Shown: positions 5,272-45,488 of the stretch, in pieces
How positions within the stretch are numbered: the first letter of the stretch is position 1
Layout: every line of letters begins with the position of its first letter
From: Rhodothermia bacterium
Lineage (GTDB): Bacteria; Bacteroidota; Rhodothermia; Balneolales; Balneolaceae
Direction of reading: 5' to 3'
DNA length: 64,000 nt
Assembly: GCA_030427885.1 (NCBI GenBank)
Contig: JAUICM010000003.1
Coordinates: 496,001-560,000 of the forward strand
Program-made: the position numbers and the translations under genes
The notes under the pieces: generated by a model
What the model saw: only the letters and a program-made list of their open reading frames with translations
Told to the model about the DNA's origin: nothing
Databases searched by the model: none

Positions 5272-6516
5272 TTGACTAACATCGAACCCTGGATACATAT
5301 ACCCGACAACAGCGACTTCTCGATCTATAATCTTCCATTTGGAATTTTTTCCACAGCTAACTCTTCCAAAAGAGTGGGCATCGCTATTGGTGATAAGATC
5401 ATTGACCTGCCTGAAGTAATCAGGTTAGGTTTACTTGACTCCCTCAATATTCCACTGGAAGCAGCAAAAAATGAGTTCCTGAATGATCTGATCGCTTTAG
5501 GCAAAAAGACGACTAATGGAATTCGGAAGAAACTCCAAAAGCATTTATGCGATGAAAGTTCTCCTTTAAAAAATCACGATGCCTGTTTTGTCGACCCGTC
5601 TTCAGCAACAATGCATTTGCCGGTAAAAGTGGGCGACTACACTGATTTCTATTCAAGTATAGAGCATGCAACCAATGTGGGTAAGATGTTCCGTGATCCG
5701 GAAAATGCTCTTCTTCCAAACTGGAAACATTTACCTGTTGGGTATCATGGCCGGTCATCTTCTATTGTCGTTTCAGGTACCGACATCCACCGGCCCAAAG
5801 GACAAACTAAGCCCGCCGACAGTGATCCTGTATTTGGACCCTCAAAACGTATGGATTTCGAGCTCGAAATGGCTTTTATCATTGGAAAGGATTCTTCTCT
5901 CGGCGAAACAGTTTCAACAGATGAGGCTGAGGATTATATTTTTGGAATGGTGCTGTTCAACGATTGGTCAGCAAGGGATATTCAGAAATGGGAATACGTT
6001 CCACTGGGTCCGTTTCTGGGCAAGAACTTCGCCTCGTCCGTTTCGCCATGGGTTGTTCCACTTGAGGCATTGGATTCTTTTCGTGTTTCAGGGCCCGAAC
6101 AGGATCCGAAGGTTCTTCCATATCTGCAATACTCCGGTACAAAGAATTATGATATCAGCCTTGAAGTTCAGCTCCAGCCGGAAGGCGAAGATGAGTCCTC
6201 AACCATATGCCGTAGCAACTTTAAGTATATGTACTGGAATATGGCACAGCAGCTGGCTCACCACACCGTAAACGGCTGTAATGTGCGAATTGGTGATATG
6301 ATGGCCTCCGGAACAATTTCCGGAAAAGAACCGGATTCATTCGGTTCGATGCTTGAGCTTTCCTGGTCAGGTTCAAAATCAGTCGGGCTTAGAAACGGAC
6401 AAGAACGAACCTTTCTTGAGGATGGTGATACTGTGATCATGAAGGGATTTTCTTCAACTGATGGTGTTCGGGTTGGCTTCGGTGAAGTACGATCTAAATT
6501 ATTACCAGCGAAATAA
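5272..6516 (+). CDS. fahA: Fumarylacetoacetase
   Basis: A 414-residue enzyme that hydrolyses fumarylacetoacetate to fumarate and acetoacetate, the last step of tyrosine catabolism. It has the N-terminal FAH domain (NLPFGIFST) and the catalytic domain with VGDYTDFYSSIEHATNVG, YHGRSSSIV and FNDWSARDIQKWEYVPLGPFLGKNF. These hold the metal-binding Asp/Glu and catalytic His residues of the family. The start is TTG at 5272; no better ATG lies near. The stop codon overlaps the ATG of the flavin-reductase-like gene, so translation is likely coupled. It lies in the hmgA operon. Confidence 0.94.
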   Translation: MTNIEPWIHIPDNSDFSIYNLPFGIFSTANSSKRVGIAIGDKIIDLPEVIRLGLLDSLNIPLEAAKNEFLNDLIALGKKTTNGIRKKLQKHLCDESSPLKNHDACFVDPSSATMHLPVKVGDYTDFYSSIEHATNVGKMFRDPENALLPNWKHLPVGYHGRSSSIVVSGTDIHRPKGQTKPADSDPVFGPSKRMDFELEMAFIIGKDSSLGETVSTDEAEDYIFGMVLFNDWSARDIQKWEYVPLGPFLGKNFASSVSPWVVPLEALDSFRVSGPEQDPKVLPYLQYSGTKNYDISLEVQLQPEGEDESSTICRSNFKYMYWNMAQQLAHHTVNGCNVRIGDMMASGTISGKEPDSFGSMLELSWSGSKSVGLRNGQERTFLEDGDTVIMKGFSSTDGVRVGFGEVRSKLLPAK

Positions 6517-7421
6517 TGAGCCCTGATTTCAAAACCATTGATCCCAATGATCTGAGCACACCGGAGCGCCAATGGATACTTAATTCAGCGGTAGCCCCGC
6601 GACCCATTGCTTTTGCCTGTACCATTGATACCGGGGGTCATGTGAATCTCAGCCCATTCAGTTTTTTCAATGTATTTTCAAACAACCCGCCGATACTGGT
6701 TTTTTCTCCTTCGCGCCGTGGAAGAGATAACACCACCAAGCATACCTACGAGAATGTAAAAGAAGTGCCTGAGGTATGTATTAATGTGGTGAATTATCAA
6801 ATGGCTGAGCAGATGTCGCTGGCCAGTACAGAGTATGACAAAGGAGTGAATGAATTTATTAAAGCTGGTTTTACAGAACTTCCTTCAGATATTATAAAGC
6901 CCCCCAGAGTAGCTGAAAGTCCCGTTTCTTTCGAATGCACTGTTGACCAGGTGCTCGAGCTTGGGGATCAGGGCGGCGCCGGAAACCTGGTAATTTCCAG
7001 GGTTAGACGGATACACATCAATACTCAGTATCTGAATTCAGATGGAAAACTGGATACTACTAAACTTGATCTCATCGCCCGGATGGGGGCCAATTACTAC
7101 ACGCGCGCTTTTGGTGATGCCATTTTTGAGATCCCGAAACCACTGCAAACTTTGGGTATTGGAGTAGATAAGCTTCCTGAACACATCAGGAAGAGTGACG
7201 TTCTAACTGCCAACAATCTGGGCCGACTAGGAAACCTGGAGTCACTTCCTTCTGGTGAAAGTATTAATCAGCTCCGGTCTGACGCCGTCATCTCTGATAT
7301 ATTTGAACGTTTGTCGGGAGAGGAGCGAATTCGTTCTATTCATATGCTTGGAAAAGAACTTCTTGAAGCCGGTGAAGCTGAGAAAGCATTTATCACTTTA
7401 TGCACATTAAATGATGAGTAA
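6516..7421 (+). CDS. Flavin-reductase-like flavoprotein of the tyrosine cluster
   Basis: A 301-residue protein whose first ~200 residues match the flavin reductase/FMN-binding split-barrel family (RQWILNSAVAPRPIAFACT, HVNLSPFSFFNVFSNNPPILVFSP, NTTKHTYENVKEVPEVCINVV). The last ~90 residues form an extra helical tail. Family members bind FMN and reduce flavin or act as oxygenase partners. The exact reaction here is unknown. It overlaps fahA at its start and acetoacetyl-CoA synthetase at its end, so it is in the core of the operon and probably has a job in this pathway. Confidence 0.8.
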   Translation: MSPDFKTIDPNDLSTPERQWILNSAVAPRPIAFACTIDTGGHVNLSPFSFFNVFSNNPPILVFSPSRRGRDNTTKHTYENVKEVPEVCINVVNYQMAEQMSLASTEYDKGVNEFIKAGFTELPSDIIKPPRVAESPVSFECTVDQVLELGDQGGAGNLVISRVRRIHINTQYLNSDGKLDTTKLDLIARMGANYYTRAFGDAIFEIPKPLQTLGIGVDKLPEHIRKSDVLTANNLGRLGNLESLPSGESINQLRSDAVISDIFERLSGEERIRSIHMLGKELLEAGEAEKAFITLCTLNDE

Positions 7422-33078: not shown

Positions 33079-34041
33079 CTATAGGTGATCAACCGGGCTT
33101 TTAATGTAATTGCCGCTCTTGTTGATCACATGCGTATAAATCATCGTTGTTTTCAGGTTCTTGTGTCCCAGTAATTCCTGAACCGTTCTGATATCGTAGC
33201 CATTCCTGAGTAATTGTGTTGCAAACGAATGCCGGAACGTATGGCATGTGACTTTCTTTGTAATATTAGCAGATTCCACCGCCTTTTTGAGTTTTCTTTG
33301 AATCTGCCTTCCAGAAATGTGATACCGGTGTTCCATCCCTGACCGGGGGTCTCTTGTTATGGTAGCGGAGGGAAACAAATATTGCCATCCCAGATTTGTT
33401 TGCTCTGCCGGGTATTTTATGGCGAGGGCTTTAGGAAGTAATGCCTTTCCATATCCATCGGCAAGATCTTTTTGATGTATCATATTCACCTTCTTTATCT
33501 GCTTTCGAAGTTCAGGTGTACATTTTTTAGGGAGCAGGCTTACCCTGTCCCTGTTGCCTTTTCCCGAGCGAACCCATAGCTGGCCCTGTTCGAAGTCCAC
33601 ATCCTGAACCCGAAGTCTAAGACACTCTGAAATTCTTATTCCACTTCCATAAAGTAATTCACAGATCATCTGAGCGCGGCCACTAAGCTTTTCGAGAATA
33701 AACATTGCTTCATTGTGAGATAAGACCACAGGAAGCTTCTTCGGTTTTTTTGCCCGTTTCAGGTTATCGAGTTTCAGACTTTTCTTATGCAGCACCTGTT
33801 TGTACAAAAATACCAGCGCTGCCAGTGCCTGATTCTGTGTACTTGCAGCCACTTTCTTCTGGTTGGCCAAGTCATTCAGAAACTGCTCCACTTCTATATC
33901 ACCCAGGTTATTGGGGTGCACAGTGCCGTTCGATTTTATATACCGGATGATCCAGTTACAATAGGCCTGTTCGGTACGGTAACTATAATTTCTTCTTCTT
34001 ATCTCTTCTCTAACTTTTTCTAATAACTTTGATTTACCCAT
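33079..34041 (-). CDS. intI: Integron integrase (tyrosine recombinase)
   Basis: A 320-residue tyrosine recombinase with an N-terminal SAM-like core-binding domain (YSYRTEQAYCNWIIRYI). Its catalytic residues are all in place: Arg136 (YGSGIRISE), His267 and Arg270 (CHTFRHSFA), His293 (LLGH) and Tyr302 (MIYTH). The segment between residues ~200 and 245 (KALAIKYPAEQTNLGWQYLFPS...DPRSGMEHRYH) is the extra domain that separates IntI from XerC/D and binds the flipped attC bases. It is full length with no frameshift, so it may be active. It faces the cassette array divergently, as in classical integrons. Confidence 0.96.
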   Translation of the reverse strand: MGKSKLLEKVREEIRRRNYSYRTEQAYCNWIIRYIKSNGTVHPNNLGDIEVEQFLNDLANQKKVAASTQNQALAALVFLYKQVLHKKSLKLDNLKRAKKPKKLPVVLSHNEAMFILEKLSGRAQMICELLYGSGIRISECLRLRVQDVDFEQGQLWVRSGKGNRDRVSLLPKKCTPELRKQIKKVNMIHQKDLADGYGKALLPKALAIKYPAEQTNLGWQYLFPSATITRDPRSGMEHRYHISGRQIQRKLKKAVESANITKKVTCHTFRHSFATQLLRNGYDIRTVQELLGHKNLKTTMIYTHVINKSGNYIKSPVDHL

Positions 34042-34253
34042 AGTTGCTTGCCAATATTGATACTGTTACTATCTAAGTAAGACCGATGGGAATGGGATTC
34101 CTTACAACAACCGGAATATTATGCGACAAGGTTATATGACATTTTCATCGCTTTTAAAATGAAAAGATGCGTTTTGGACATGCTGAACAGAACTTACAGA
34201 ATTTTATACGACGTCTTATAAGCTAACCCCATTCGCATATTAATATGTTATGC
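34042..34253. promoter_or_regulatory. attI recombination region and intergenic promoters
   Basis: The space between intI and the first cassette. The first cassette joins at G34247 in GTTATGC. Immediately before the joint is a 12-bp perfect palindrome, CATATTAATATG (34236-34247), within GCATATTAATATGTTATGC. This is probably the simple core site of attI. AT-rich stretches nearby (34195-34225, TTTTATACGACGTCTTATAAG) could hold the cassette promoter Pc and the intI promoter, but I cannot fix -35 and -10 boxes. Confidence 0.7.
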
Positions 34254-34272
34254 TTTTTGTAAGATTTAAGCT

Positions 34273-34470
34273 ATGCGTGAATTTTTATCATTTTTAATCT
34301 CTTTGGTAATTTTGGGCATAATGATATTTGTCCAAATAAGAAACCAAGAAGTTTGGGCTTATTCTCCTATTAAAAAAGAAGACTACCCAAAGGCATATTA
34401 CCTCCTAATTGGCATGGAGTTAGTATTATTTTTTGTAGTCCTAATTTTTATAATTGGAATGTTTTCTTAA
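34273..34470 (+). CDS. Cassette 1: small two-helix membrane protein (65 aa)
   Basis: A 65-residue protein with two hydrophobic segments (residues ~5-22 and ~44-64) separated by a short polar stretch. It would be an inner-membrane hairpin. It begins 25 bp after the attI-cassette joint, so it is the cassette best placed for expression from a promoter in attI or intI. The cassette starts GTTATGCTTTTTG and its own attC is preceded by AAAAGCATAAC, which are complementary. Function is unknown. Confidence 0.65.
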   Translation: MREFLSFLISLVILGIMIFVQIRNQEVWAYSPIKKEDYPKAYYLLIGMELVLFFVVLIFIIGMFS

Positions 34471-34486
34471 ACATTAATAATCAAAA

Positions 34487-34576
34487 GCATAACAAGCGTT
34501 TCAAGCGGACTCGAACGCGATTCGGGTCGTTAATTTTAACCCCCAGGCTCGCCGCTTAAACGCCGGGTCGTTAGTA
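34487..34576 (+). repeat. attC1 (90 bp)
   Basis: Canonical member of the 90-bp attC class: R'' GCATAAC at the left, arms pairing with one unpaired base, right arm CCGCTTAAACGCCGGGTCG, cleavage expected after G34570. Confidence 0.93.
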
Positions 34577-34589
34577 GGCTTACTTAATC

Positions 34590-35042
34590 ATGAAGAAATT
34601 CATTTTACTTTTTTTCTTTGCCTTTCTATTTGTTGGTATCAGCAAAGCCTGCATTTGTGAAGAACAAACGCTTGAACAAAGAATTGAAAAGTATCACTTC
34701 ATTTTCATTGGCAATGTAATTTCGGTTGAAGATATCTTCAGTGACAGTACTTCAACTTGGCCTGACCAGCAAAGAATTGTTATTGAGATTGAGAAGAAGT
34801 TCAAAGGAAATCAAAGTGAACAAATAATAGTTGAATCTGAACTTTCAAGTTGTGCCTCATTCTTTGAAGAAGGGAAGAAATATTTAGTATTTGCAGGCCA
34901 CTCCATCACAAATGAAACTGAGATAAATGAAAACTTTGTGGCAACAAATAACAAAGTAGTAACTGGTAAGTGTTATGGAACAAGAGCAGTAGAGTTTTCA
35001 AAAAAAGAAATCCAAGAACTTGAAAATCATTACAATCAATAA
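34590..35042 (+). CDS. Cassette 2: secreted TIMP/NTR-like protein (150 aa)
   Basis: A 150-residue protein with a clear signal peptide (FILLFFFAFLFVGISKA) followed at once by Cys-Ile-Cys. Later come FIFIGNVISVED, SCASFFEEGKKYLVFAG and GKCYGTRAVEFS. A Cys-x-Cys at the mature N-terminus, a beta-barrel pattern and the late cysteines recall the netrin-like (NTR)/TIMP fold found in small bacterial secreted proteins. The resemblance is by pattern only. The cassette is bounded by attC1 and attC2. The gene starts 19 bp after the cassette joint. Confidence 0.65.
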   Translation: MKKFILLFFFAFLFVGISKACICEEQTLEQRIEKYHFIFIGNVISVEDIFSDSTSTWPDQQRIVIEIEKKFKGNQSEQIIVESELSSCASFFEEGKKYLVFAGHSITNETEINENFVATNNKVVTGKCYGTRAVEFSKKEIQELENHYNQ

Positions 35043-35055
35043 AAAGCATCCAGCC

Positions 35056-35145
35056 TACTAACAAGCGTTTCAAGCGGACTCGAACGCGGTTCGGGTCTTT
35101 AATTTTAACCCCGAGGCTCGCCGCTTAAACGCCGGGTCGTTAGGC
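35056..35145 (+). repeat. attC2 (90 bp)
   Basis: Left end TACTAAC, right arm with GCCGGGTCG, cleavage expected after G35139. The cassette start GTTAGTAGGC and the sequence before this site, GCCTACTAAC, are perfectly complementary. Confidence 0.93.
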
Positions 35146-35160
35146 GAATTAAAGAGATCA

Positions 35161-35583
35161 ATGGAAGAAAAACCTAATCGATACAAGCTTACCGAATATT
35201 GGGGAATAAGAGTTCTAGTTACTTGGTATTCGGCTTTTGTATTGATAGGATTATTATTCTTTGAATTGCCTGATGGAGTAATTATCCCATTATTGGGTGG
35301 CATTATGGCTGCCGTAGCAATACCAATGACTAGGCATGTGCTTAAGTTTCAGAAGCGTAACTCTGGGCACATGAAAAGAAGCCTCTATGACTCTGCTGTT
35401 TTCTTCTTTTGGTCCTTTGGGATTTTCGGTACTGCTTTTTTCCTGATTGGAGCTTTAATCTCAATTTTTAAAAGTAATGAGATCTTTGGGATATTCTTTT
35501 TTCTTTCATCGTCTCTTTTCCCATTAGGAATAGCCATCGGAGCTTCAAAACAGTGGGACATGCGAGATGTGTTCAAAACATAA
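35161..35583 (+). CDS. Cassette 3: four-helix membrane protein (140 aa)
   Basis: A 140-residue protein with four predicted membrane helices (about residues 17-34, 37-54, 78-101 and 107-124), joined by short charged loops such as MTRHVLKFQKRNSGHMKRS. There are no enzymatic motifs that I recognise. The gene begins 21 bp into the cassette, whose ends (GTTAGGCGAAT and ATTCGCCTAAC) are complementary. Function is unknown. Confidence 0.65.
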   Translation: MEEKPNRYKLTEYWGIRVLVTWYSAFVLIGLLFFELPDGVIIPLLGGIMAAVAIPMTRHVLKFQKRNSGHMKRSLYDSAVFFFWSFGIFGTAFFLIGALISIFKSNEIFGIFFFLSSSLFPLGIAIGASKQWDMRDVFKT

Positions 35584-35596
35584 ACTTAGTACATTC

Positions 35597-35686
35597 GCCT
35601 AACAAGCGTTTTAAGCGGACTCGTTTAGGGTTCGAAAGCTTAATTTTAAACCTCAGACTCGCCGCTTAAACGCGGGGTCGTTAGCT
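35597..35686 (+). repeat. attC3 (90 bp, variant centre)
   Basis: R'' GCCTAAC. The left arm has GCGTTTTAAGCGG and the centre ACTCGTTTAGGGTTCG, which it shares with attC15. The right arm reads CGCGGGGTCG, one base off the usual CGCCGGGTCG. Confidence 0.92.
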
Positions 35687-35715
35687 GTGCTTAATTCAAA
35701 GCTTATAACTGAAAG

Positions 35716-36126
35716 TTGAAATTGAACAGTCAAGAAATTTGGAATTGGACTAAAAAAAATAGCAAGTATCTATGGCCATTAATCATATTATTAATTGGGT
35801 GGATTGAATATTCATTTCAAGAAGCTCTATTAATATTGATAATTGTATACTTGTACATACTTGGCACTTTCGAAGTATTGAATTGTTTTATCCATATGAT
35901 TTTAAATGCAATCCAATTTAAATCTGTAAAGAACTCTTTTCAAAAAAATTATACTTCCAATAAATTGATTTTTCATTGTTCAATTTTGTTAGGAATAGTG
36001 CTTATTGCTAAAATTTTAGATAATGAATCAGGTATTAGAATTGCAATAGTTTTAGGAGTTACATTAGCAATTTTAGTTCATGTATATGCTGTAATATTCT
36101 CCTTAATTAAACCACCACACAGCTAA
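35716..36126 (+). CDS. Cassette 4: membrane protein (136 aa)
   Basis: A 136-residue protein with about four hydrophobic segments (near 18-30, 33-55, 88-100 and 108-131) and a polar N-terminus (QEIWNWTKKNSKY). The best start is TTG at 35716; no ATG fits. The stop codon TAA falls inside the R'' box of attC4 (AGCTAAC), so coding sequence and recombination site overlap by a few bases. Function is unknown. Confidence 0.6.
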   Translation: MKLNSQEIWNWTKKNSKYLWPLIILLIGWIEYSFQEALLILIIVYLYILGTFEVLNCFIHMILNAIQFKSVKNSFQKNYTSNKLIFHCSILLGIVLIAKILDNESGIRIAIVLGVTLAILVHVYAVIFSLIKPPHS

Positions 36127-36210
36127 CAAGCGTTTTAAGCGGACCCGAACGCAGTTCGGGTCTTTAATTTTAAACCCCAGACTCGCCGCTTAAACGCCGG
36201 GTCGTTATGT
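36121..36210 (+). repeat. attC4 (90 bp)
   Basis: R'' AGCTAAC contains the stop codon of cassette 4. Standard arms; cleavage expected after G36204. Confidence 0.93.
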
Positions 36211-36223
36211 GTAATCACAAATT

Positions 36224-36457
36224 ATGAGAAGTAAATCACTCAAAGATTACGAAGTCATTATTGGCAGTGATGTCAACGAAAGAGACGGCATTGGAATTGA
36301 AATTTGGTCAAAAGAACAACTCTTAATTGAGATCTTTAGAAATGATAAAAATGAAGAATACACGATCTCTGTTTTTGAAAAAGATCTTCCTTTAAGCCTT
36401 ATCGAAGAAGCTATCAAACGTTTTAAAAAAGAAATCCCAAGTGTATTCCAAAAGTAA
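36224..36457 (+). CDS. Cassette 5: small soluble protein (77 aa)
   Basis: A 77-residue charged soluble protein with no signal peptide. Predicted layout is two or three strands (YEVIIGSDVN, GIGIEIWSK, LLIEIFRND) and a C-terminal helix (LSLIEEAIKRFKKEI). This alpha/beta layout resembles small immunity or toxin-modifier proteins common in cassettes, but I cannot assign a family. The cassette ends show a 12-bp complementarity (GTTATGTGTAAT with ATTACACATAAC). The gene starts 19 bp from the joint. Confidence 0.6.
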   Translation: MRSKSLKDYEVIIGSDVNERDGIGIEIWSKEQLLIEIFRNDKNEEYTISVFEKDLPLSLIEEAIKRFKKEIPSVFQK

Positions 36458-36463
36458 CATTAC

Positions 36464-36553
36464 ACATAACAAGCGTTTCAAGCGGACTCGACCGCGGTTC
36501 GGGTCTTTAATTTTAAAACCCAGACTCGCCGCTTAAACGCCGGGTCGTTATAG
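36464..36553 (+). repeat. attC5 (90 bp)
   Basis: R'' ACATAAC, standard arms, cleavage expected after G36547. Confidence 0.93.
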
Positions 36554-36584
36554 CATTTTCAAGAAATCAATCGAGGAGGTTGTA

Positions 36585-37007
36585 ATGCGATTAATTATCT
36601 ATTCTATTTTCTTTTCGATATTGACACTTTCTGCCTGTTCAATTTTTTCAGATGGAGACAACTCTTCCTCTGATATTAATTTGGAATATCTGAATCAGCA
36701 TTGGGTTCATTCTTATGAAGAAGAATCTCAGGAAAGTGACGTAAATATATTTAGACCTAATGACTACAAGGAATTCCCACCGAGTCGGTTTAGAATGCAG
36801 TACATTTTTGAAGAAGATGGTTCATGCGAGTGGTTTTATCTTGCTCCAGATGATGGTCACCACTTTAGGTCAGGTAATTGGCGACTCGTTGCAGAAAACA
36901 ATGAAGACATTATCATTGAACGGGATGAAGACTTATTGCGATACCGCATAATCGAACTAAACGAAGAGATACTTCGCATGAAACTTATTGAATCTCAGCA
37001 AAACTAA
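36585..37007 (+). CDS. Cassette 6: lipoprotein, lipocalin-like pattern (140 aa)
   Basis: A 140-residue lipoprotein with lipobox LSACS. The mature part has alternating strands (RMQYIFEEDGSCEWFYLAP, SGNWRLVAENNEDIIIERDE, LRYRIIELNEEILRMKLIE), a pattern seen in small lipocalin-like lipoproteins. It has a good ribosome site (GAGGAGG) before the ATG. The cassette begins GTTATAGCATTTT and ends AAAATGCTATAAC, a perfect 13-bp match. Its attC is of a different family from its neighbours, suggesting a separate origin. Confidence 0.65.
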   Translation: MRLIIYSIFFSILTLSACSIFSDGDNSSSDINLEYLNQHWVHSYEEESQESDVNIFRPNDYKEFPPSRFRMQYIFEEDGSCEWFYLAPDDGHHFRSGNWRLVAENNEDIIIERDEDLLRYRIIELNEEILRMKLIESQQN

Positions 37008-37011
37008 AATG

Positions 37012-37140
37012 CTATAACAACCGCATTAACGGCGGACGCAGACTAGGCTTTAAATTAAATTTCTTGTCAATGATTGTTCAAATGTTTAGCCTTTTAAAAA
37101 ATCATAATCCCTGCGCCGGTTATGCGATAGGCCGTTATGC
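37012..37140 (+). repeat. attC6 (129 bp, divergent family)
   Basis: Left arm TAACAACCGCATTAACGGCGGACGCAG pairs with right arm CTGCGCCGGTTATGCGATAGGCC. Only the core TAAC/GTTA and overall geometry are shared with the other sites. Cleavage expected after G37134. The long AT-rich centre (37047-37110) would form the variable terminal structure. Confidence 0.85.
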
Positions 37141-37156
37141 AACCTAGTTTCAAATC

Positions 37157-37657
37157 TTGAAAAGAATTTTAAAATACATTGTGTTAGTTCTTGGTGGGGT
37201 TTTCCTATTGAATATGCTTACATGGTTTTTTTATGGTCAAGAACAAATTCTTCTTGTTGGAGCTAATGTTGAGGAAGTCGAAAGTTGGACTGGTAAAACT
37301 GATACCCTTTATCTATTTATTGGTGAAGTTGATCATGATAACTATAAACAATTTTCAGACTTTAATAGATCTAAAATTGAAGAACTAGTTATTGAGATAA
37401 ATAGAACAGGTCGCACAGCAATTATTGATGAGAGACCATTACCATTATTTGTTGAAAGCAATGAAGGTCAGGAATTACTTAATTCCAATGGTTCAGATGC
37501 ATTTTCTTACACAGTCCAAGTAGTTAACCCTTTTCCCATGGTTTCTAGAGTTTATAAATTAATATGGGTACCGGGCTTCGGAACTGATAGAGAGCATCTT
37601 TACATCTGGTTTTTTAAATGGTTCTGTGTTAAAGATCTTGGGGGCGGTGTTTCATAA
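37157..37657 (+). CDS. Cassette 7: membrane-anchored protein (166 aa)
   Basis: A 166-residue protein with one N-terminal hydrophobic segment (YIVLVLGGVFLLNMLTWFF, residues ~7-26) and a soluble domain outside. It starts with TTG at 37157. The C-terminal part contains aromatic clusters (YKLIWVPGFGTDREHLYIWFFKWF) that may lie on the membrane. I do not recognise a family. Cassette start GTTATGCAACC and end GGTTGCCTAAC pair with one mismatch. Confidence 0.6.
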   Translation: MKRILKYIVLVLGGVFLLNMLTWFFYGQEQILLVGANVEEVESWTGKTDTLYLFIGEVDHDNYKQFSDFNRSKIEELVIEINRTGRTAIIDERPLPLFVESNEGQELLNSNGSDAFSYTVQVVNPFPMVSRVYKLIWVPGFGTDREHLYIWFFKWFCVKDLGGGVS

Positions 37658-37667
37658 TGTTTCGGTT

Positions 37668-37797
37668 GCCTAACAAGCGTTTCAAGCGGACTCTCCCCTA
37701 CTCTGTCAGCTGACGGATTCGGAGAGCAGGCGAACAAGTTTCTAAACTTTAATTACATTCACGCAGGGCTCGCCGCTTAAACGCCGGGTCGTTAGTG
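37668..37797 (+). repeat. attC7 (130 bp)
   Basis: Standard outer arms but a longer centre with its own hairpin (CTCTCCCCTACTCTGTCAG...). Cleavage expected after G37791. Confidence 0.9.
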
Positions 37798-37809
37798 GGC
37801 TAAGTAATC

Positions 37810-38220
37810 ATGAGCATTTTAAAATCTCTTTTACTCTTATTGGTTTTACTTGTTTTCACTGGTGACTTACTTGCACAGCAACAGGAGTTCAACCTACTTC
37901 AGGAACCTATTCCAAAAGGTTATTACGCTGATGATATTTATCCAAACCCTTATGGCTTTACTACAAGTACAAAGTTCTACTCCCCAGACTCAGCTTTTGT
38001 TGAAATAATTGTTTTAAATGATTCTGATGAAGAAGTAACAGAGATTTATAGCGGCTTCATTGCGCCTGGTGTTTACTTTGTTGGCTGGAATTTAAAAAAT
38101 AGCAATGGAAATAGAGTTCCTCATGGAATTTATAGATTTAAAATTTCAGCACATTCTAAATTAAACCTGACTGAAACTAAGTTTGAAGCCTTTGTTAATT
38201 TGCCCATTATCCCTGACTAG
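37810..38220 (+). CDS. Cassette 8: secreted Ig-like protein (136 aa)
   Basis: A 136-residue protein with a signal peptide (SLLLLLVLLVFTGDLLAQQ). The mature domain has the beta pattern IYPNPYGFTTSTKFYSPDSAFVEIIVLNDSDEEVTEIYSG...YFVGWNLKNSNGNRVPHGIYRFKI. This strongly resembles the FlgD-like/C-terminal Ig-like domain in Bacteroidota secreted proteins (WDGKNSNGxxVPSGVYxY pattern). Here that domain stands alone. It is likely periplasmic or surface exposed. Function is unknown. Confidence 0.7.
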   Translation: MSILKSLLLLLVLLVFTGDLLAQQQEFNLLQEPIPKGYYADDIYPNPYGFTTSTKFYSPDSAFVEIIVLNDSDEEVTEIYSGFIAPGVYFVGWNLKNSNGNRVPHGIYRFKISAHSKLNLTETKFEAFVNLPIIPD

Positions 38221-38232
38221 TTTAGCTCCGCC

Positions 38233-38378
38233 CACTAACAAGCGTTTTAAGTCGGACCCTGATCTTCATCAGTGCAGGCTCCGGTAGGGTTCGCTGGAAA
38301 GCTTGTGAGCAATAAAATAAATCAGTTACTTCAACAAAAACCGAAAACCTGCGCCGCTTAAACGCCGGGTCGTTATAA
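38233..38378 (+). repeat. attC8 (146 bp, long-centre subfamily)
   Basis: Outer arms are standard; the centre carries the AGCTTGTG...CAGTTACTTCAAC block that also occurs in attC12 and attC13. Cleavage expected after G38372. Confidence 0.9.
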
Positions 38379-38386
38379 GTCATTCG

Positions 38387-38782
38387 ATGCTTAAACAACT
38401 TTTGGAAATTGGCTTTAGAAAGGTAGGCGACGTAAGACTCGTTGATAAAGGTCTTTACATTGAAATAACCGAAGAAGCTGAATCTAGAAATATTCTGTAT
38501 TCATTCGTGGTTGATGGAGAACCAGTATATGTAGGCAAAACAACTCAGCCACTTAAAAAGCGAATGTATGGATATAAAAATCCGGGTAGTACTCAGGCAA
38601 CTAATATTCGAATTAACTCGAATTTAATTACTGCCATAAAAAAAGGATCTATCATAGATATTTTTGCCCTTCCTGATCATGGGCTGCTACACTTTGGAAT
38701 TTTTCATTTAAATTTGGCAGCAGGTCTAGAAGATAACATTGTCAAGCAACTTGCACCAAAATGGAACATGACAGGAAAATGA
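38387..38782 (+). CDS. Cassette 9: GIY-YIG-like domain protein (131 aa)
   Basis: A 131-residue protein with a GIY-YIG nuclease core. ILYSFVVDGEPVYVGKTTQPLKKRMYGYKNPG supplies the two Tyr-containing strands and the catalytic Arg. LEDNIVKQLAPKWN carries the late acidic residue and the typical PxWN end. A short N-terminal region precedes it. It could cleave nucleic acid and may be a defence or mobile-DNA nuclease. It is unrelated in length and context to the repeat-borne GIY-YIG protein at 30755. The gene begins 15 bp into the cassette. Confidence 0.75.
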   Translation: MLKQLLEIGFRKVGDVRLVDKGLYIEITEEAESRNILYSFVVDGEPVYVGKTTQPLKKRMYGYKNPGSTQATNIRINSNLITAIKKGSIIDIFALPDHGLLHFGIFHLNLAAGLEDNIVKQLAPKWNMTGK

Positions 38783-38783
38783 C

Positions 38784-38909
38784 TTATAACAAGCGTTTCA
38801 AGCGGACTCCCCGCCTGTTCCTTGGGGAACAGCGGGGCAGGCGAACTTGTCTACGCGCCATTAATATAAATCAACCACGGCTCGCCGCTTAAACGCCGGG
38901 TCGTTAGCC
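38784..38909 (+). repeat. attC9 (126 bp)
   Basis: Standard outer arms; centre with a GC-rich hairpin (CCCCGCCTGTTCC...GGAACAGCGGGG). Cleavage expected after G38903. Confidence 0.9.
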
Positions 38910-38920
38910 AAACTTTAAGA

Positions 38921-39739
38921 ATGAAATCTTTATTTGTAGTCTGCTTATTAATACTACTTGTTGGCTGTTCAGAAAACAGAAAACATTTTGAAAATTTACA
39001 GGGTGACTGGAGGGGTATTGAATCAGGTGAGTTTCAATTCTATGCAAATGTCTCTGGAGATAGCATTCTCTTAAATGATTTTTACTATCAAAAGTTCAAG
39101 GTCTATGATGATTCAATAATTGTTTTCTTAGATGATCCTTATAAATCGAGGATTACTTACAAAGAAGTTACTCAACACGTTTTTTATATCAAGGAATTGA
39201 CAGATTCAAATATTGAATTAGAAACAGTAGTTGAACAACGACAAAGAAGGGTTAACGATTTTAAATTAGATACGATACGATTTCGACTAGAGCGGTTTAA
39301 ACCGAAAAGAAATAAACCAAAGCTAGTTAGAATAGAGTTTTCTTCTGGCGAATGTTATTACGGAGGTTGTCCGCAAAGAAATATAATCATCGACAGTTCA
39401 GGATATTTTTACTATGAACCTGTAGAAAATGTAAATGTCGATACAACTTTTGAAAGCTATAAAGCCAAACCTTTTTTTAGAGATTTATCTTTAATCGTTT
39501 CATCAATTCCAACCGATTACATAGAGTCGTTGGATGGAATTACAATGCATGCTCAAGTACTATATACAAAGCTTTTTTTCGATAATGGGCTTGAATTAAG
39601 TTTTTTCACGGATCATGAAAACAATTTATTTCCTTTATTTTCGAAATTGGAACATTCATTGGACTTTATAGAAGGATTGAGTCCAGCAGACAAGATTAAT
39701 TTCTCAATTCGAGATACTCTTGATAATTATCCACTTTAA
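38921..39739 (+). CDS. Cassette 10: lipoprotein with DUF6438-like domain (272 aa)
   Basis: A 272-residue lipoprotein with lipobox LVGCS (Cys16). The first ~120 mature residues form an extracytoplasmic beta domain (LQGDWRGIESGEFQFYANVSG). Residues ~145-260 (LVRIEFSSGECYYGGCPQRNIIIDSSGYFYYE...FFRDLSLIVSSIPTDYIES) resemble the DUF6438 pattern with its C-x4-C motif. Function of that family is unknown. The cassette lies between attC9 and attC10. Confidence 0.65.
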   Translation: MKSLFVVCLLILLVGCSENRKHFENLQGDWRGIESGEFQFYANVSGDSILLNDFYYQKFKVYDDSIIVFLDDPYKSRITYKEVTQHVFYIKELTDSNIELETVVEQRQRRVNDFKLDTIRFRLERFKPKRNKPKLVRIEFSSGECYYGGCPQRNIIIDSSGYFYYEPVENVNVDTTFESYKAKPFFRDLSLIVSSIPTDYIESLDGITMHAQVLYTKLFFDNGLELSFFTDHENNLFPLFSKLEHSLDFIEGLSPADKINFSIRDTLDNYPL

Positions 39740-39752
39740 ACTAAAACCGTTT

Positions 39753-39866
39753 GGCTAACAAGCGTTTCAAGCGGATCCGCCGGCGGTCGGACACAGCTCT
39801 GATAACGCGGTTCGGGTCTTTAATTTTAACCCCCAGACTCGCCGCTTAAACGCCGGGTCGTTATGT
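39753..39866 (+). repeat. attC10 (114 bp)
   Basis: A 90-bp-type site with a ~24-bp extra block (GGATCCGCCGGCGGTCGG region) in the left half. Cleavage expected after G39860. Confidence 0.9.
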
Positions 39867-39875
39867 GCTTTAACT

Positions 39876-40217
39876 ATGAAGATCGTCAAAATAAATACTG
39901 ATGATATTATAGACTGGGATTCATTCCATGATCTATTTTCCAAAAAATTTGGCTTTCCCAAGTTCTATGGAAAAAATATGAATGCATGGATTGATTGTAT
40001 GACTTCACTAGATTCTCCAGATGATGGAATGACTTCAATTCATACGAGTAAAGGAGAAACCATTATTATTGAATTAGAAAATGTGTCCTCATTGGCAACT
40101 AGAAATAGAGAAATTTATGATGCTATCATTGAATCCTCTGCCTTTGTTAACTATAGAAAAATTGAACTTGGAGAACCCGCTGTTCTTACACTATCATTTC
40201 ATAAAACTCGCACATAA
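39876..40217 (+). CDS. Cassette 11: barstar-like protein (113 aa)
   Basis: A 113-residue protein matching the barstar fold. It has a first helix (DWDSFHDLFSKKFGFPKFYGKNMNAWIDCMTSL) carrying the family's FPxFYGKNxxAWxD motif. Strands and helices follow (TIIIELENVSS, ATRNREIYDAIIESSAFVNYR). Barstar inhibits the ribonuclease barnase; barstar-like genes without a nuclease partner occur in integron arrays. No barnase-type toxin is encoded next to it. Its stop codon lies in the R'' box of attC11. It starts 16 bp into the cassette. Confidence 0.82.
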   Translation: MKIVKINTDDIIDWDSFHDLFSKKFGFPKFYGKNMNAWIDCMTSLDSPDDGMTSIHTSKGETIIIELENVSSLATRNREIYDAIIESSAFVNYRKIELGEPAVLTLSFHKTRT

Positions 40218-40301
40218 CAAGCGTTTCAAGCGGACTCGAACGCGATTCGGGTCTTTAATTTTAAATCCCAGGCTCGCCGCTTAAACGCCGGGTCGTTATG
40301 T
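40212..40301 (+). repeat. attC11 (90 bp)
   Basis: R'' ACATAAC holds the barstar-like gene's stop codon. Standard arms; cleavage expected after G40295. Confidence 0.93.
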
Positions 40302-40323
40302 TGCTTATCATAAATATGAATTA

Positions 40324-40779
40324 ATGCCACTTATAAAATCACTAAAGAAAAATTCTGGGGTTTATCTCTTACACGTATTTTTTATTGTTGTAATTGCACC
40401 AATGGTAGCTGGTTCTTTTGCGGGACTATATGAGATAATTTATGAATCAAATGGACAGGGATTTGTTAATCAAATTGGTAGAATTATTGGTGGAGCAATT
40501 TTCACTCCTATTTTCGGTATAATTTTTAGCTTCCCTCTTTCAATTTTTTCTTTATTTATCTTCAAACTACTAATGGATTGGGATCAAAATAGACTACTCT
40601 ACTTTTGTTTGGTTGGTGGCTCTTCTGGAGTGGCAATTTATTCGGTTTACTATTTTATGGATGAAAATAATGGTCTAGCACTTTTTCTTATTCTATCATT
40701 TGTTGGGGTAGCAATCGGTTATTTCTTGTCATTTATATGGAAAGATGGTTACACAAAAACTAAATTATCAGCAACATAA
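40324..40779 (+). CDS. Cassette 12: four-helix membrane protein (151 aa)
   Basis: A 151-residue protein with about four membrane helices (residues ~13-35, 52-80, 90-110 and 118-140). It has no catalytic motif that I recognise. The stop codon overlaps R'' of attC12. Cassette ends (GTTATGTTGC and GCAACATAAC) are perfectly complementary. The start ATG is 28 bp from the joint. Function is unknown. Confidence 0.6.
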   Translation: MPLIKSLKKNSGVYLLHVFFIVVIAPMVAGSFAGLYEIIYESNGQGFVNQIGRIIGGAIFTPIFGIIFSFPLSIFSLFIFKLLMDWDQNRLLYFCLVGGSSGVAIYSVYYFMDENNGLALFLILSFVGVAIGYFLSFIWKDGYTKTKLSAT

Positions 40780-40897
40780 CAAGCGTTTCAAGTCGTACGC
40801 AGGTAGGATTCGCTGGCAAGCTTGTGAGCAATAAAAATATTCAGTTACTTCAACAAAAACCGAGAACCTGCGCCGCTTAAACGCCGGGTCGTTAGCC
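40774..40897 (+). repeat. attC12 (124 bp, long-centre subfamily)
   Basis: Left arm CAAGTCG instead of CAAGCGG; centre with AGCTTGTGAGC and CAGTTACTTCAAC shared with attC8 and attC13. Cleavage expected after G40891. Confidence 0.9.
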
Positions 40898-40911
40898 GAA
40901 TTAAATACACT

Positions 40912-41505
40912 TTGAAAAATAATTCCTTTCGAATCATAGCATTGTTTGAAGTACTTGGAGGGGTTCTTCTTACACTGGAAATAATTGAGTATTTCACTTT
41001 TTACATCGGTCTTGAAAATTATTTAGCTGCAGCTCTCAGCCTCCTGTTTTTAATTCCCTCCTTGTCACTTGTGTATGGAGGCTATTTATTGTGGAACTAT
41101 AAACAGCGGGGTTTCCTACTATCAATGTTAGGTCAAGGGTTTCAAGCTGTCTTTTTTTCAACACCTTGGTTTTCATATACAATGTTATCCCCTATTGCTA
41201 TTACATTTTTCTGGAATACAAACTCTGACTTCTTATTTAATTTCCGCTTTGCTACAGACTTCACATTCTGGTTTAGTAGTCCATTACCATATTCAGAATT
41301 TGGTATAAATTTTCTAAGTATTGGCTTCATTATTTACTTATTTCGTCCATTCCAACTACTTAAAGAATATGGCAGACTACCAAGAAAACTAAAATGTTAT
41401 AATTGTAACACAAGCTATGGCTGGGATGCTAAATTTGAAGCATTGGAATTTAAATGTGATTACTGTAATGAAATTGTCAAGTATGAAAAAGAATCATTCG
41501 GCTAA
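40912..41505 (+). CDS. Cassette 13: membrane protein with C-terminal zinc ribbon (197 aa)
   Basis: A 197-residue protein starting with TTG at 40912. Four or five hydrophobic segments fill residues ~6-150 and include aromatic loops (FFSTPWFSYTMLSP). The last ~40 residues are a cytoplasmic zinc ribbon with four cysteines in two CxxC pairs (CYNC and CDYC). The stop falls in the R'' box of attC13. Such membrane plus zinc-ribbon layouts are known but unassigned. Function is unknown. Confidence 0.65.
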   Translation: MKNNSFRIIALFEVLGGVLLTLEIIEYFTFYIGLENYLAAALSLLFLIPSLSLVYGGYLLWNYKQRGFLLSMLGQGFQAVFFSTPWFSYTMLSPIAITFFWNTNSDFLFNFRFATDFTFWFSSPLPYSEFGINFLSIGFIIYLFRPFQLLKEYGRLPRKLKCYNCNTSYGWDAKFEALEFKCDYCNEIVKYEKESFG

Positions 41506-41623
41506 CAAGCGTTTCAAGTCGGACGCAGGTAGGGTTCGCTGGAAAGCTTGTGGTCAATAAAAATATTCAGTTACTTCAACAAAAAACGAAAACCTGCGCC
41601 GCTTAAACGCCGGGTCGTTATGC
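41500..41623 (+). repeat. attC13 (124 bp, long-centre subfamily)
   Basis: Near twin of attC12, with the same centre block; right arm GCCGGGTCG. Cleavage expected after G41617. Confidence 0.9.
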
Positions 41624-41636
41624 AACAAGTCAATTA

Positions 41637-42287
41637 ATGAAACCTGTAGTTTTAATTAATAAATACGTTGAATCTTATCTTGTCAATGAATTAAAGTCTT
41701 ATGGATATTCATATTCTGCTTCAAAAATCAGGTTCAGAAAGAATATCGATAAGAAAATATTGGGTATTGATTTTTGGCGATCCAAGTGGAACAAAGAAGA
41801 TGTTTTAAGTGAATTCTGGATAGATTGCGGAATTAATTCAACCTATTATTCAAAATGGGTGTTTGACAGATACGGAATAAAAAAAGTGAATGACAATATT
41901 CTTGGAATTCAATGCCATACAATCAAGGGTTGGGATAAAACTGGTATGAACAGAATTCACAGGTATAATCTAGTTAGTGATAACCCAGATCAGTTAATGA
42001 ACATCATCAAAAACAATTTCTTAAATATTTTAGTCCCATTTCTAGAAAACTACACTAGTTGGAAACGTGCTGCTGACACAATTTTGAAACAAGCAAAGTT
42101 TAAACAAGAATATATCAAAGCTTCAGACTTCTATATTTTATCTGACCTTCCAGAAAAGGGATTTGAGCCATTACTTATAGCAAAAGAATATTTAATGAAG
42201 AAAATTGAAGAAGATCCACATCCCAATTTTTATAAATGGATAGATGAGATCGATATGAGATTAAAAATAAATTACAATGTTAACTAA
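41637..42287 (+). CDS. Cassette 14: soluble protein of unknown function (216 aa)
   Basis: A 216-residue soluble protein without signal or membrane segment. The first half is beta-rich (KIRFRKNIDKKILGIDFWRSKW, SEFWIDCGINSTYY), the second helical. The opening pattern, a variable helix followed by basic strands and a W/F-rich core, loosely resembles DUF4304-type proteins, but I would not assert it. Cassette start GTTATGCAAC and end GTTGCCTAAC pair with one mismatch. The gene begins 19 bp after the joint. Confidence 0.6.
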   Translation: MKPVVLINKYVESYLVNELKSYGYSYSASKIRFRKNIDKKILGIDFWRSKWNKEDVLSEFWIDCGINSTYYSKWVFDRYGIKKVNDNILGIQCHTIKGWDKTGMNRIHRYNLVSDNPDQLMNIIKNNFLNILVPFLENYTSWKRAADTILKQAKFKQEYIKASDFYILSDLPEKGFEPLLIAKEYLMKKIEEDPHPNFYKWIDEIDMRLKINYNVN

Positions 42288-42293
42288 TCAGTT

Positions 42294-42383
42294 GCCTAAC
42301 AAGCGTTTCAAGCGGACTCGAACGCGGTTCGGGTTCTTAATTTTAAACTCCGGGCTCGCCGCTTAAACGCCGGGTCGTTATAG
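42294..42383 (+). repeat. attC14 (90 bp)
   Basis: R'' GCCTAAC, standard arms, cleavage expected after G42377. It precedes the Septu-like cassette. Confidence 0.93.
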
Positions 42384-42411
42384 AGCCTTTTAAACTCAAA
42401 GAGTAGACATT

Positions 42412-43656
42412 ATGCAGTTCAAGCATTTAAAAATAAAGGAATGGAAACAGTTTGAAGATTTAGACCTATCATTTCATTCCAACCTCACAGTTCTGACTGG
42501 TGCAAATGGAGCAGGCAAAACTACCCTTCTTAATTTGCTTGCCCAGCATTTCGGCTGGAATTTTCGAGAACTTGCAACCCCTGCTAAAGATAAAAAAACT
42601 GGTGGATTTAGATTCTTCACAAGATTTTTTAAAAAGCCTTTCAGTTTATTTTCTAGTGAACAAACAAACGAAAATCAAATTGGCTCATTAACTTATAGTA
42701 ATGGTCATTCTTCACCTTTAATTATTCCAGATTCTGATTCACCTCAATACAAAATTCAGATACAGAGCCAACAAAAAGTAAGTGGCTTCAATATCCATTC
42801 ACATAGACCATTATTTAGTTATGCCAATGTTCCACATATACCAATTAAGAAGAGAACGGCACGTCAGGCTTTTGATCTTGTTTCACAAAGTAGCAGACAA
42901 AGAATATTTGGTAATGAAAGACAACCACTAAATTTCCATATCAAAGAAACACTATTACTGTGGGCTAATCAAGGGTATGAAAGTGCCGTTCAAGAACCTG
43001 ATGAACAATCAAGAATCTATTATGAAGGATTTCAAGTAGTTTTAAAAAAGATACTTCCTGAAACACTGGGGTTTATCGAATTTAAAATTCGTTCGGGCGA
43101 AATAGTTATGATATGTAAATCTGGTGATTTTATGCTTGATGCAGTATCAGGCGGTGTTGGTGCTTTAATTGACTTAGCTTGGAAAATATATTTAGTGGAC
43201 CTTGAAGAAGATCAGCCAATCACAATATTAATTGATGAAGCTGAAAACCATCTGCATGCTTCAATGCAAAGGGAGATGTTACCGAATTTTATATCTGCTT
43301 TTCCAAATGTCCAATTTATTGTTTCAACACACAGTCCATTAATAATTGGTTCGGTAAAGGACTCGAACGTTTATGCCTTGAGATATGAAGAAAATGAATT
43401 AGGTGAAAATAAGGTTGTTAGCCAACTTTTGGATCTTGAGAATAAGGCTAAAAATGCTACTGAAATTTTGAATGAAGTTCTTGGCGTTTCATTCACAATG
43501 CCAATTTGGGTTGAAGGTACATTAAAACAGATTGTTGCTAAGTACTCTTCCGAGGAAATGGATGAAAATACTTTTGAAAAAATGAGAAGTGAATTACAAG
43601 AGATTGGTTTAGAAGATTTAATGCCATTAGCTATAAAAAATGTTCTAGGTAAGTAA
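42412..43656 (+). CDS. ptuA-like: Cassette 15, gene 1: Septu PtuA-like AAA/ABC-type ATPase (414 aa)
   Basis: A 414-residue SMC/ABC-type ATPase. Walker A is GANGAGKT (residues 30-37). The signature-like motif is VSGGVGAL (from 245), Walker B ITILIDEAENHLH (Asp275-Glu276), and the switch histidine His307 is in VSTHSPL. A long insert separates Walker A from the signature, as in OLD/PtuA-type ATPases. With an HNH gene 2 bp downstream it forms the two-gene layout of Septu anti-phage systems. In Septu the ATPase senses infection and controls the PtuB nuclease. The pair fills one cassette, so this is unusually long cargo. Confidence 0.82.
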   Translation: MQFKHLKIKEWKQFEDLDLSFHSNLTVLTGANGAGKTTLLNLLAQHFGWNFRELATPAKDKKTGGFRFFTRFFKKPFSLFSSEQTNENQIGSLTYSNGHSSPLIIPDSDSPQYKIQIQSQQKVSGFNIHSHRPLFSYANVPHIPIKKRTARQAFDLVSQSSRQRIFGNERQPLNFHIKETLLLWANQGYESAVQEPDEQSRIYYEGFQVVLKKILPETLGFIEFKIRSGEIVMICKSGDFMLDAVSGGVGALIDLAWKIYLVDLEEDQPITILIDEAENHLHASMQREMLPNFISAFPNVQFIVSTHSPLIIGSVKDSNVYALRYEENELGENKVVSQLLDLENKAKNATEILNEVLGVSFTMPIWVEGTLKQIVAKYSSEEMDENTFEKMRSELQEIGLEDLMPLAIKNVLGK

Positions 43657-43658
43657 TT

Positions 43659-44306
43659 ATGATTCAACTAAACAAGAATGGCGAGCCTCCTGTTTTAACA
43701 GCGAATAAAGATGCTTGGAAAAATGAACTGATGGGGTATATACAAAGGGGAGAAAAAATACCATCATCAGTATCAAATAGATATAACAAAACTGAAGTAA
43801 AAGAATCACTGAGACAAGAGTCTTATAGTAAATGCATCTATTGTGAGAGCAATGTTCAACACATTTCATATGAACATATTGAACACATAAAACCAAAAGC
43901 TAGAGATAAATATCCTGAATTAACCTTTGAGTATGAGAATCTTGGATTATCCTGCCCTAAATGTAATATGAATAAGGGGGCAGAGTATGATGAGAATGTA
44001 CCTTATATCAATCCATTTGTTGACAATCCTGAAAATCATTTTAAAGCAATTGGTGCATTAATTTGGGCTTTGCCAGGTGATAGACGGGCTAGATTAACTG
44101 AATTAGATATTGAATTAAATCGTCCTGAGCTTCTTGAAGTTCGAAGAGAAAGATTAAATAGCATTAGAAGCTTAGTCGAAATATATAATCAAGAAACGAA
44201 CCAAAGACTCAAACAATCTTTGAAAAATGAGATTGAAACTGAGATCGGAGAAGATAAACCATACTCATTTATTACAAGTAAACTTGTTGAGGCACTCTTG
44301 AATTAA
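43659..44306 (+). CDS. ptuB-like: Cassette 15, gene 2: Septu PtuB-like HNH nuclease (215 aa)
   Basis: A 215-residue HNH endonuclease. Zinc-binding pairs Cys59/Cys62 (CIYC) and Cys99/Cys102 (CPKC) flank the core EHIEHIKPKARDKYPELTFEYENLGLSCPKCNMNKG, with catalytic His76 and Asn94. This IEHIKPK...ENL..SC..CN..KG pattern is that of the nuclease paired with ATPases in Septu and retron-Eco7/Ec78 systems. The ATG lies 2 bp after the ATPase stop, so translation is coupled. It would cleave nucleic acid when the ATPase is triggered. Confidence 0.85.
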   Translation: MIQLNKNGEPPVLTANKDAWKNELMGYIQRGEKIPSSVSNRYNKTEVKESLRQESYSKCIYCESNVQHISYEHIEHIKPKARDKYPELTFEYENLGLSCPKCNMNKGAEYDENVPYINPFVDNPENHFKAIGALIWALPGDRRARLTELDIELNRPELLEVRRERLNSIRSLVEIYNQETNQRLKQSLKNEIETEIGEDKPYSFITSKLVEALLN

Positions 44307-44330
44307 GCCTAACTCAAAATGAAACCGGCT

Positions 44331-44420
44331 CTATAACAAGCGTTTCAAGCGGACTCGTTTAGGGTTCGGAACTTTAATGACTAAAACCAGGCTCGCCGCT
44401 TAAACGCCGGGTCGTTATGT
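44331..44420 (+). repeat. attC15 (90 bp, variant centre)
   Basis: R'' CTATAAC; centre CTCGTTTAGGGTTCG as in attC3. Cassette start GTTATAGAGCC and the bases before this site, GGCTCTATAAC, are complementary over 11 bp. Cleavage expected after G44414. Confidence 0.92.
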
Positions 44421-44442
44421 TGCTTCAACTAAACTTGTAAAC

Positions 44443-44703
44443 ATGTCAGAAAAAGTAGATTCATTCGATTCTTTTTTGAAGTTTTTAAAAGCCTCGGAGG
44501 AAGATCGAAAGAAGTCCGTGGCACTTGAGGCAGAGAAGCCTTCTTCGCCTTTTGGACCGGATGCAGGTGGTTGGGAAAATACATCTATTGAAAGTTTTCT
44601 CGAATCTATGAGAGCTTGGTTAACTGACAGCCAGGACAAAAATGTATCTCCCTCTTGGGAGTTGTTTGCAGAAGCAATCATGGCTGGAAAAACCTATGAA
44701 TAG
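44443..44703 (+). CDS. Cassette 16: small acidic protein, DUF7660-like (86 aa)
   Basis: An 86-residue soluble acidic protein. The second half (GGWENTSIESFLESMRAWLTDSQ...SWELFAEAIMAGKTYE) has the W-x-N...FL-x2-M-x-AW...W-x-x-FA...G-x-x-YE pattern that I associate with the DUF7660 family, which often occurs in integron cassettes and beside polymorphic toxins. The function is unknown; an immunity role has been imagined for similar small proteins. It starts 28 bp after the cassette joint. Its attC is broken downstream. Confidence 0.65.
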   Translation: MSEKVDSFDSFLKFLKASEEDRKKSVALEAEKPSSPFGPDAGGWENTSIESFLESMRAWLTDSQDKNVSPSWELFAEAIMAGKTYE

Positions 44704-44706
44704 GTA

Positions 44707-44735
44707 ACATAACAAGCGTTTCAAACGGACTTACT
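44707..44735 (+). repeat. attC16, truncated
   Basis: The left half (ACATAAC, CAAGCGTTTCAAACGGACT) is intact, then the sequence departs and no right arm CGCCGGGTCGTTA follows. Cassette 16 should therefore be unable to excise alone. Confidence 0.8.
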
Positions 44736-44981: not shown

Positions 44982-45488
44982 CCTTCTTGTTTAAGGGCTG
45001 ATATTTTACCAAGCGAGGGGTTTCAACCCCGAGTTCTCAGAATCTAATATACTACACCACCCTTCACGAGGAGGCTTAAATTATTACCTGTCTCTTCCTT
45101 TCCCGACGAAGTGATCTCCTTAACAATGCCCCTAAACACATTCCCTGAGATTGCTTCGTCGATAAAGATCTAATTCTATAGTTAAAATCTATACTCCTCG
45201 CAACGACCGGGCTTCTATTATTCCATTTCCGGGTTTTCTAAGTTCTGCACCCCTCTATCTCCTTCTTGTTTAAGGACTCGTATTTTTAACAAACGAGGGG
45301 TTTCAACCCCGAGTTCTCAGAATCTAATATACTACACCGCCCTTCACGAGGAGGCTTAAATTATTACCAGTCTCTTCCTTTTCCCTACGAAGTGATCTCC
45401 TTAACAATGCCCCTAAACATATTCCCTGAGATTGCTTCGTCGATAAAGATCTAATTCTATAGTTAAAATCTATACTCCTCGCAACGAC
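44982..45488. repeat. Two direct copies of a ~226-bp repeat
   Basis: Copy A (44982-45207) and copy B (45261-45488) are nearly identical and separated by 53 bp. Each starts CCTTCTTGTTTAAG, holds the palindrome GGGGTTTCAACCCC and an inverted pair CGACGAAG...CTTCGTCG, and ends CTCCTCGCAACGAC. No gene is visible in them; with the remnant before, they fill 44714-45499. Confidence 0.88.

Follow-up and report, generated by a model that had tools for sequence, protein, structure and literature searches.

Organization of the integron array

The window analyzed here is a 64,000-nucleotide stretch of a contig from a Rhodothermia bacterium (JAUICM010000003.1, positions 496,001 to 560,000). It contains an integron whose integrase gene, located on the minus strand at 33079 to 34041, encodes an intact IntI of 320 amino acid residues with a Phage_integrase domain and a SAM-like N-terminal domain (TIGR02249, 436.6 bits against a cut-off of 265). 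The integrase gene is followed by 15 complete attC sites on the plus strand and then by one truncated site at 44710, in which the start is present and the 3′ half is missing. Cassettes 1 to 14 (34248 to 42377, plus strand) are 323 to 957 bp long, and each is closed by an attC, as judged from complete attC sites and from the pairing of each cassette start with its own end. Cassette 16 (44415 to 44720, plus strand) carries a DUF7660 gene (Pfam, 7e-11), and its truncated attC marks the end of the array. The match between the start and the end of the same cassette averaged 10.7 of 12 letters over the 15 complete cassettes, compared with 6.4 for wrong partners, and the GC content was 35% in the array and 44% in the rest of the window. 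An Rfam scan across the integron for attC or retron RNA gave no match, and a stem score failed to distinguish real attC sites, including those of the window, from shuffled sequences and was dropped as evidence.

Several other features of the array and the host genome were observed. Cassette 11 (39876 to 40217) encodes a barstar-like inhibitor (Pfam, 1.8e-14) with no barnase beside it, and two direct copies with 95 to 98% identity and a spacing of approximately 280 bp lie just past the array at 45004 to 45488. attC sites of the same type were found elsewhere in the host genome, on contigs C2 (670807), C5 (569050), C8 (63 and 1456), and C10 (258863-262035), and these are probably cassette clusters without an integrase; attC sites outside the window were called by sequence reading and paired ends.

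The Septu cassette

Cassette 15 (42378 to 44414, plus strand) is 2037 bp long and contains a 34-nt leader followed by ptuA (42412 to 43656) and ptuB (43659 to 44306), both on the plus strand and separated by a gap of 2 bp. The left border of this Septu cassette is the attC of cassette 14 (42294 to 42383, plus strand), which has the R″-L″...L′-R′ layout common to the other sites, and its own attC lies at 44331 to 44420 on the same strand, with an R″ box (CTATAAC) that pairs with the cassette start GTTATAG. A G at 42377 precedes the start at 42378. The GTT-anchored start GTTATAGAGCC pairs with the end GGCTCTATAAC over 11 contiguous bp, and no attC was found between ptuA and ptuB inside the cassette. 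The bottom strand of each bordering attC site can be folded into arms with a bulged base, as expected; the fold z-scores are weak and the energies unremarkable.

A first-pass annotation had described an ATPase gene 2 bp ahead of an HNH gene in a cassette bounded by attC sites pairing over 11 bp. The gene order agrees with the two open reading frames, and the paired ends held up in the comparison with wrong-partner controls. Its limits of 42378 to 44420 were correct at the start only, because the true end is 44414 and the extra six bases are the R′ box of the next cassette. The annotation had also called a two-gene cassette of this length unusual, and the Septu cassette is indeed the longest of the 15 complete cassettes, of which it is the last.

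Pairing over 11 bp is by itself an ordinary feature of an integron. The Septu cassette is limited by attC sites, its R″ box is complementary to its own start, and an integron integrase is encoded in cis, as in integron gene cassettes generally. At the level of sequence, the pairing shows that ptuA and ptuB are marked as one unit. Since the cassette follows the rule that a start pairs with its own end, with 11 contiguous bases, it most likely entered the array as a single unit of 2037 bp. Its capture as a cassette is further supported by its distribution: of the 92 genomes of the host's family, 50 carry a relative of the integrase, and only the host carries PtuA.

Identification of PtuA and PtuB

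The first gene encodes an ABC-type ATPase of 414 residues and the second an HNH nuclease of 215 residues with two CxxC pairs. Both were recognized by the dedicated Septu models of PADLOC, with E-values of 3.5e-162 for PtuA (PDLC00290, residues 1-412) and 4.1e-72 for PtuB (PDLC00337), whereas Pfam recognized only general AAA and HNH domains (HNH, 2.2e-8, in PtuB). In PtuA, Walker A (GANGAGKTT) begins at residue 30, and the SGG at 246-248, the Walker B DE at 275-276, and His307 did not vary over 34 to 35 relatives. Likewise, C59xxC62, C99xxC102, H76, and N94 of PtuB did not vary over 33 to 34 relatives. A four-row alignment scan for relatives yielded 80 loci in genomes and 21 on viral contigs, and in 99 of 105 loci ptuB was the gene immediately following ptuA.

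AlphaFold models of the two proteins (pLDDT 86 for PtuA and 97 for PtuB) were compared with known structures using Foldseek. The best matches of the PtuA model were all PtuA proteins of retrons or E. coli Septu, and all six matches of the PtuB model with E < 0.001 came from retron or Septu PtuAB complexes; among solved structures, the two models matched best the PtuA and PtuB proteins from E. coli Septu and from the retrons Ec78/Eco7 and Ec83. Modeled as single chains, both proteins match chains of solved PtuAB complexes. PtuB is about equally distant from its DNA-cutting and tRNA-cutting relatives (18-21% identity, Foldseek).

The proposal in the first-pass annotation that these genes form a Septu system, with Walker A, VSGG, Walker B, and switch His motifs in the ATPase and CxxC pairs in the nuclease, is borne out by the profiles, the structural matches, and the linkage of the two genes, and the motifs are kept across relatives. 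The same annotation had named an unrelated OLD- or RecF-type ATPase with no co-occurring HNH gene as the finding that would speak against Septu. An ATPase of the OLD, GajA, or AriA type beside an HNH gene by chance would share the common ABC-ATPase motifs, and weak matches to all three were indeed obtained; however, the PtuA profile matched solved PtuA far more strongly (1.6e-30) than OLD (1.6e-10) or GajA (about 1e-8). Together with the PtuB linkage, these profiles rule out such a chance neighbor, to which we assign a negligible probability.

We also considered a retron origin, in which the two genes are the effector part of a type I-A system whose reverse transcriptase and msr-msd were lost or lie elsewhere; PtuAB would then be either a toxin without restraint or dead cargo. 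Both proteins do match retron Ec78 effector models and retron structures, more weakly than they match Septu; the NCBIfam retron PtuA and PtuB models gave matches far under their cut-offs, and the Septu PtuA model scored 538 bits against 121 bits for the retron ATPase model. Moreover, PtuA has 414 residues and not about 550, neither a reverse transcriptase in the neighboring cassettes nor an msr-msd in the Rfam scan of the integron was detected, and the cassette-borne relatives consist of the same two genes. The retron origin is therefore very unlikely. The ATPase motifs of PtuA and the HNH nuclease encoded directly downstream instead place the pair in type I Septu, and the most probable explanation overall, in which we have high confidence, is a type I Septu operon captured whole as one integron cassette, with the mobility and mechanism proposed below.

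Relatives packed as cassettes

Relatives were examined for cassette ends by taking the longest GTT-anchored word before ptuA with a reverse complement after ptuB, with a threshold of at least 10 bp. Such paired ends were present in 10 of 96 testable loci (the copy in the window included), compared with 0.12 expected from all wrong pairings; this is a count over the best matches of one search for Septu only, rather than a survey. In all 10 loci, the start lies 23 to 35 nt ahead of the start codon and the end 1 to 37 nt past the stop codon. The loci belong to Vibrio tubiashii plasmid p251, Marinomonas, Shewanella, Vibrio LaRot3, the host described here, Marivirga arenosa, the MAG CSMAG_2459, a gammaproteobacterial MAG, and two Flavobacteriales MAGs. 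Inspection of the flanking sequence also brings in Marivirga atlantica, a Bacteroidia MAG (9 bp), and a Paraglaciecola plasmid, whose linear record was joined at its ends for this reading. Four cases are relics or uncertain, namely, Vibrio LaRot3, which has paired ends and no attC after them, Roseivirga, a Flavobacteriales contig, and Colwellia. An integrase like that of the host was found in only 2 of the 10 genomes, and additionally at locus L023, indicating that several cassettes reside in genomes without an integrase of that type.

In Marivirga arenosa (L006), the 3′ end of the Septu attC seems degraded, and a frame for a transposase, IS110-like by sequence reading, follows just after the cassette at 6065-7132. 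Twenty IMG/VR contigs called viral (L086-L105) also encode full-length PtuA, in most cases followed immediately by PtuB, and prophages may thus be further carriers of this Septu branch; when the single PtuA served as query, a scan of viral contigs found none.

Evidence for movement between genomes

Two Flavobacteriales loci (L024 and L025) are 98.2% identical over a stretch that begins at the cassette start and closes with attC, and no similarity was detectable in their flanks over approximately 4 kb on the left and approximately 3 kb on the right. Right after the Septu attC (L024, 6022-7451; L025, 6022-8633), each of these genomes has another defense pair, Thoeris-like thsB-thsA (macro) in one and qatA-qatB in the other. 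The loci of Marinomonas (L019) and Vibrio LaRot3 (L022) are 95.8% identical, with the identity running from the cassette start only as far as R″, and their flanks are unrelated. The break in these related cassette bodies is at the R″ box and not at the integrase crossover point. Past R″ (L019, 5821; L022, 5821; L020, 5827), the bodies run into unrelated sequence, with one attC in Marinomonas, a different one in Shewanella, and none in Vibrio LaRot3. On the PtuA tree, in which gains and losses are indistinguishable and branch support comes from a quick search, the cassette label changes 9 to 10 times, and 8 to 9 of these changes are forced by starred branches.

The first-pass annotation had suggested that the whole system could move as one unit. 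This fits the relatives, in which near-identical PtuAB cassettes sit in unrelated flanks with identity confined to the cassette, and the copy in the host may move likewise. Related copies packed alike in unrelated bacteria suggest, as far as sequences can tell, that Septu has travelled repeatedly as a ready-made unit. The paired ends, the near-identical copies in unrelated flanks, and the scattered tree label together indicate that the compact Septu operon is recurrent integron cargo in Bacteroidota and Gammaproteobacteria. More tentatively, and with somewhat less than even confidence, we propose that the compact branch (PtuA of approximately 414 residues) is habitual integron cargo, its two-gene body having been packed into cassettes several times and being joinable at the R″ box to different attC hairpins in different hosts, as in Marinomonas and Shewanella, or to none, as in Vibrio LaRot3. 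If true, this branch would be a natural test case for the origin of integron cassettes. The matched cassette pairs in unrelated flanks provide material for studying cassette movement and attC acquisition.

Proposed mechanism and expression

In the proposed mechanism, IntI would recombine attC through its folded bottom strand, releasing the Septu cassette for re-insertion at attI. PtuA would assemble into an oligomer that keeps the PtuB nuclease under control until a phage infects the cell; PtuB would then cut nucleic acid, either phage DNA or tRNA, and phage growth would stop. In characterized Septu and its retron counterpart, PtuA with PtuB halts phage growth via the nuclease, which targets tRNA-Tyr in one Septu and reportedly acts on nicked DNA in another (PMC13096335, PMC11555353). 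In characterized Septu, mutants in Walker A/B and in HNH lose immunity and tRNA-Tyr is cleaved, and for E. coli Septu EcB88 protection has been shown to depend on both active sites (PMC13096335).

A promoter search found no match in the 34-nt leader and no Bacteroidota-type match just upstream, and sigma-70-like matches were not in excess. With this leader, no promoter match, and position 15 in the array, expression is doubtful, and judging from the sequence the Septu cassette of the host is probably stored in a silent or weakly expressed state. ptuAB would remain so until the cassette is shuffled nearer the integron promoter or is read through from upstream. Storage with activation by shuffling has been proposed for Vibrio integrons (PMC12409362), and by analogy the same scheme would fit the host cassette.

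These observations also bear on whether the cassette is an inactive passenger, that is, a true Septu operon that the array keeps but that is neither expressed nor under selection. Its position and its leader without a promoter match favor this, as does its occurrence as a single copy that is missing from the 91 other genomes of the family. However, both frames are open with all catalytic residues intact, the 75% identical relative in Marivirga is intact as well, and the intact ptuAB pair has spread repeatedly. We regard an inactive passenger as unlikely, though it is the rival that deserves the most weight, and favor a stored operon that may be activated.

Comparison with known systems

Integrons have lately been recognized as stores of phage defense, chiefly of small systems in Vibrio. 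Septu and integron-borne defense are each already known, and the new part is the recurrence of Septu as a two-gene cassette, of which we found no description in the literature, although Darracq 2025, Kieffer 2025, and Getz 2025 may hold a Septu example. That a nuclease system of two genes recurs complete in cassette form across several phyla shows that integrons can store and exchange an operon in one piece.

E. coli Septu PtuAB (PDB 8ee4, 8ee7, and 8eea) resembles the host system in combining an ABC-type ATPase with an HNH nuclease of matching folds; by contrast, its PtuA has 465 residues against 414 and is distant (about 14-18% identity, Foldseek), and the host copy is an integron cassette. 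Retron Ec78 (Eco7, type I-A) has a homologous effector pair with PtuB of a common length class (215-216 residues), whereas in the host neither a reverse transcriptase nor msr-msd was detected and PtuA is approximately 140 residues shorter. A parallel in packing is the array of V. tubiashii p251 (NZ_CP009356.1, L002), in which PtuAB is likewise bordered by attC sites and the cassette start matches the end over 12 bp. It differs in being a plasmid array with Vibrio-type attC sites, its PtuA and PtuB are 42% and 52-53% identical to those of the host, and the recombinase beside it gave no match to the integron-integrase model. The integron-borne anti-phage cassettes of Vibrio and mobile integrons (Darracq 2025, Kieffer 2025, and Getz 2025), as far as they are described in PMC12409362, likewise carry defense genes as cassettes and are small systems of at most two genes; integron-borne defense is streamlined, and systems of more than two genes are absent from integrons (PMC12409362). 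Compared with these, the host cassette lies in an integron outside Vibrio, holds Septu, a two-gene operon that was already known, and has relatives packed alike in several phyla.
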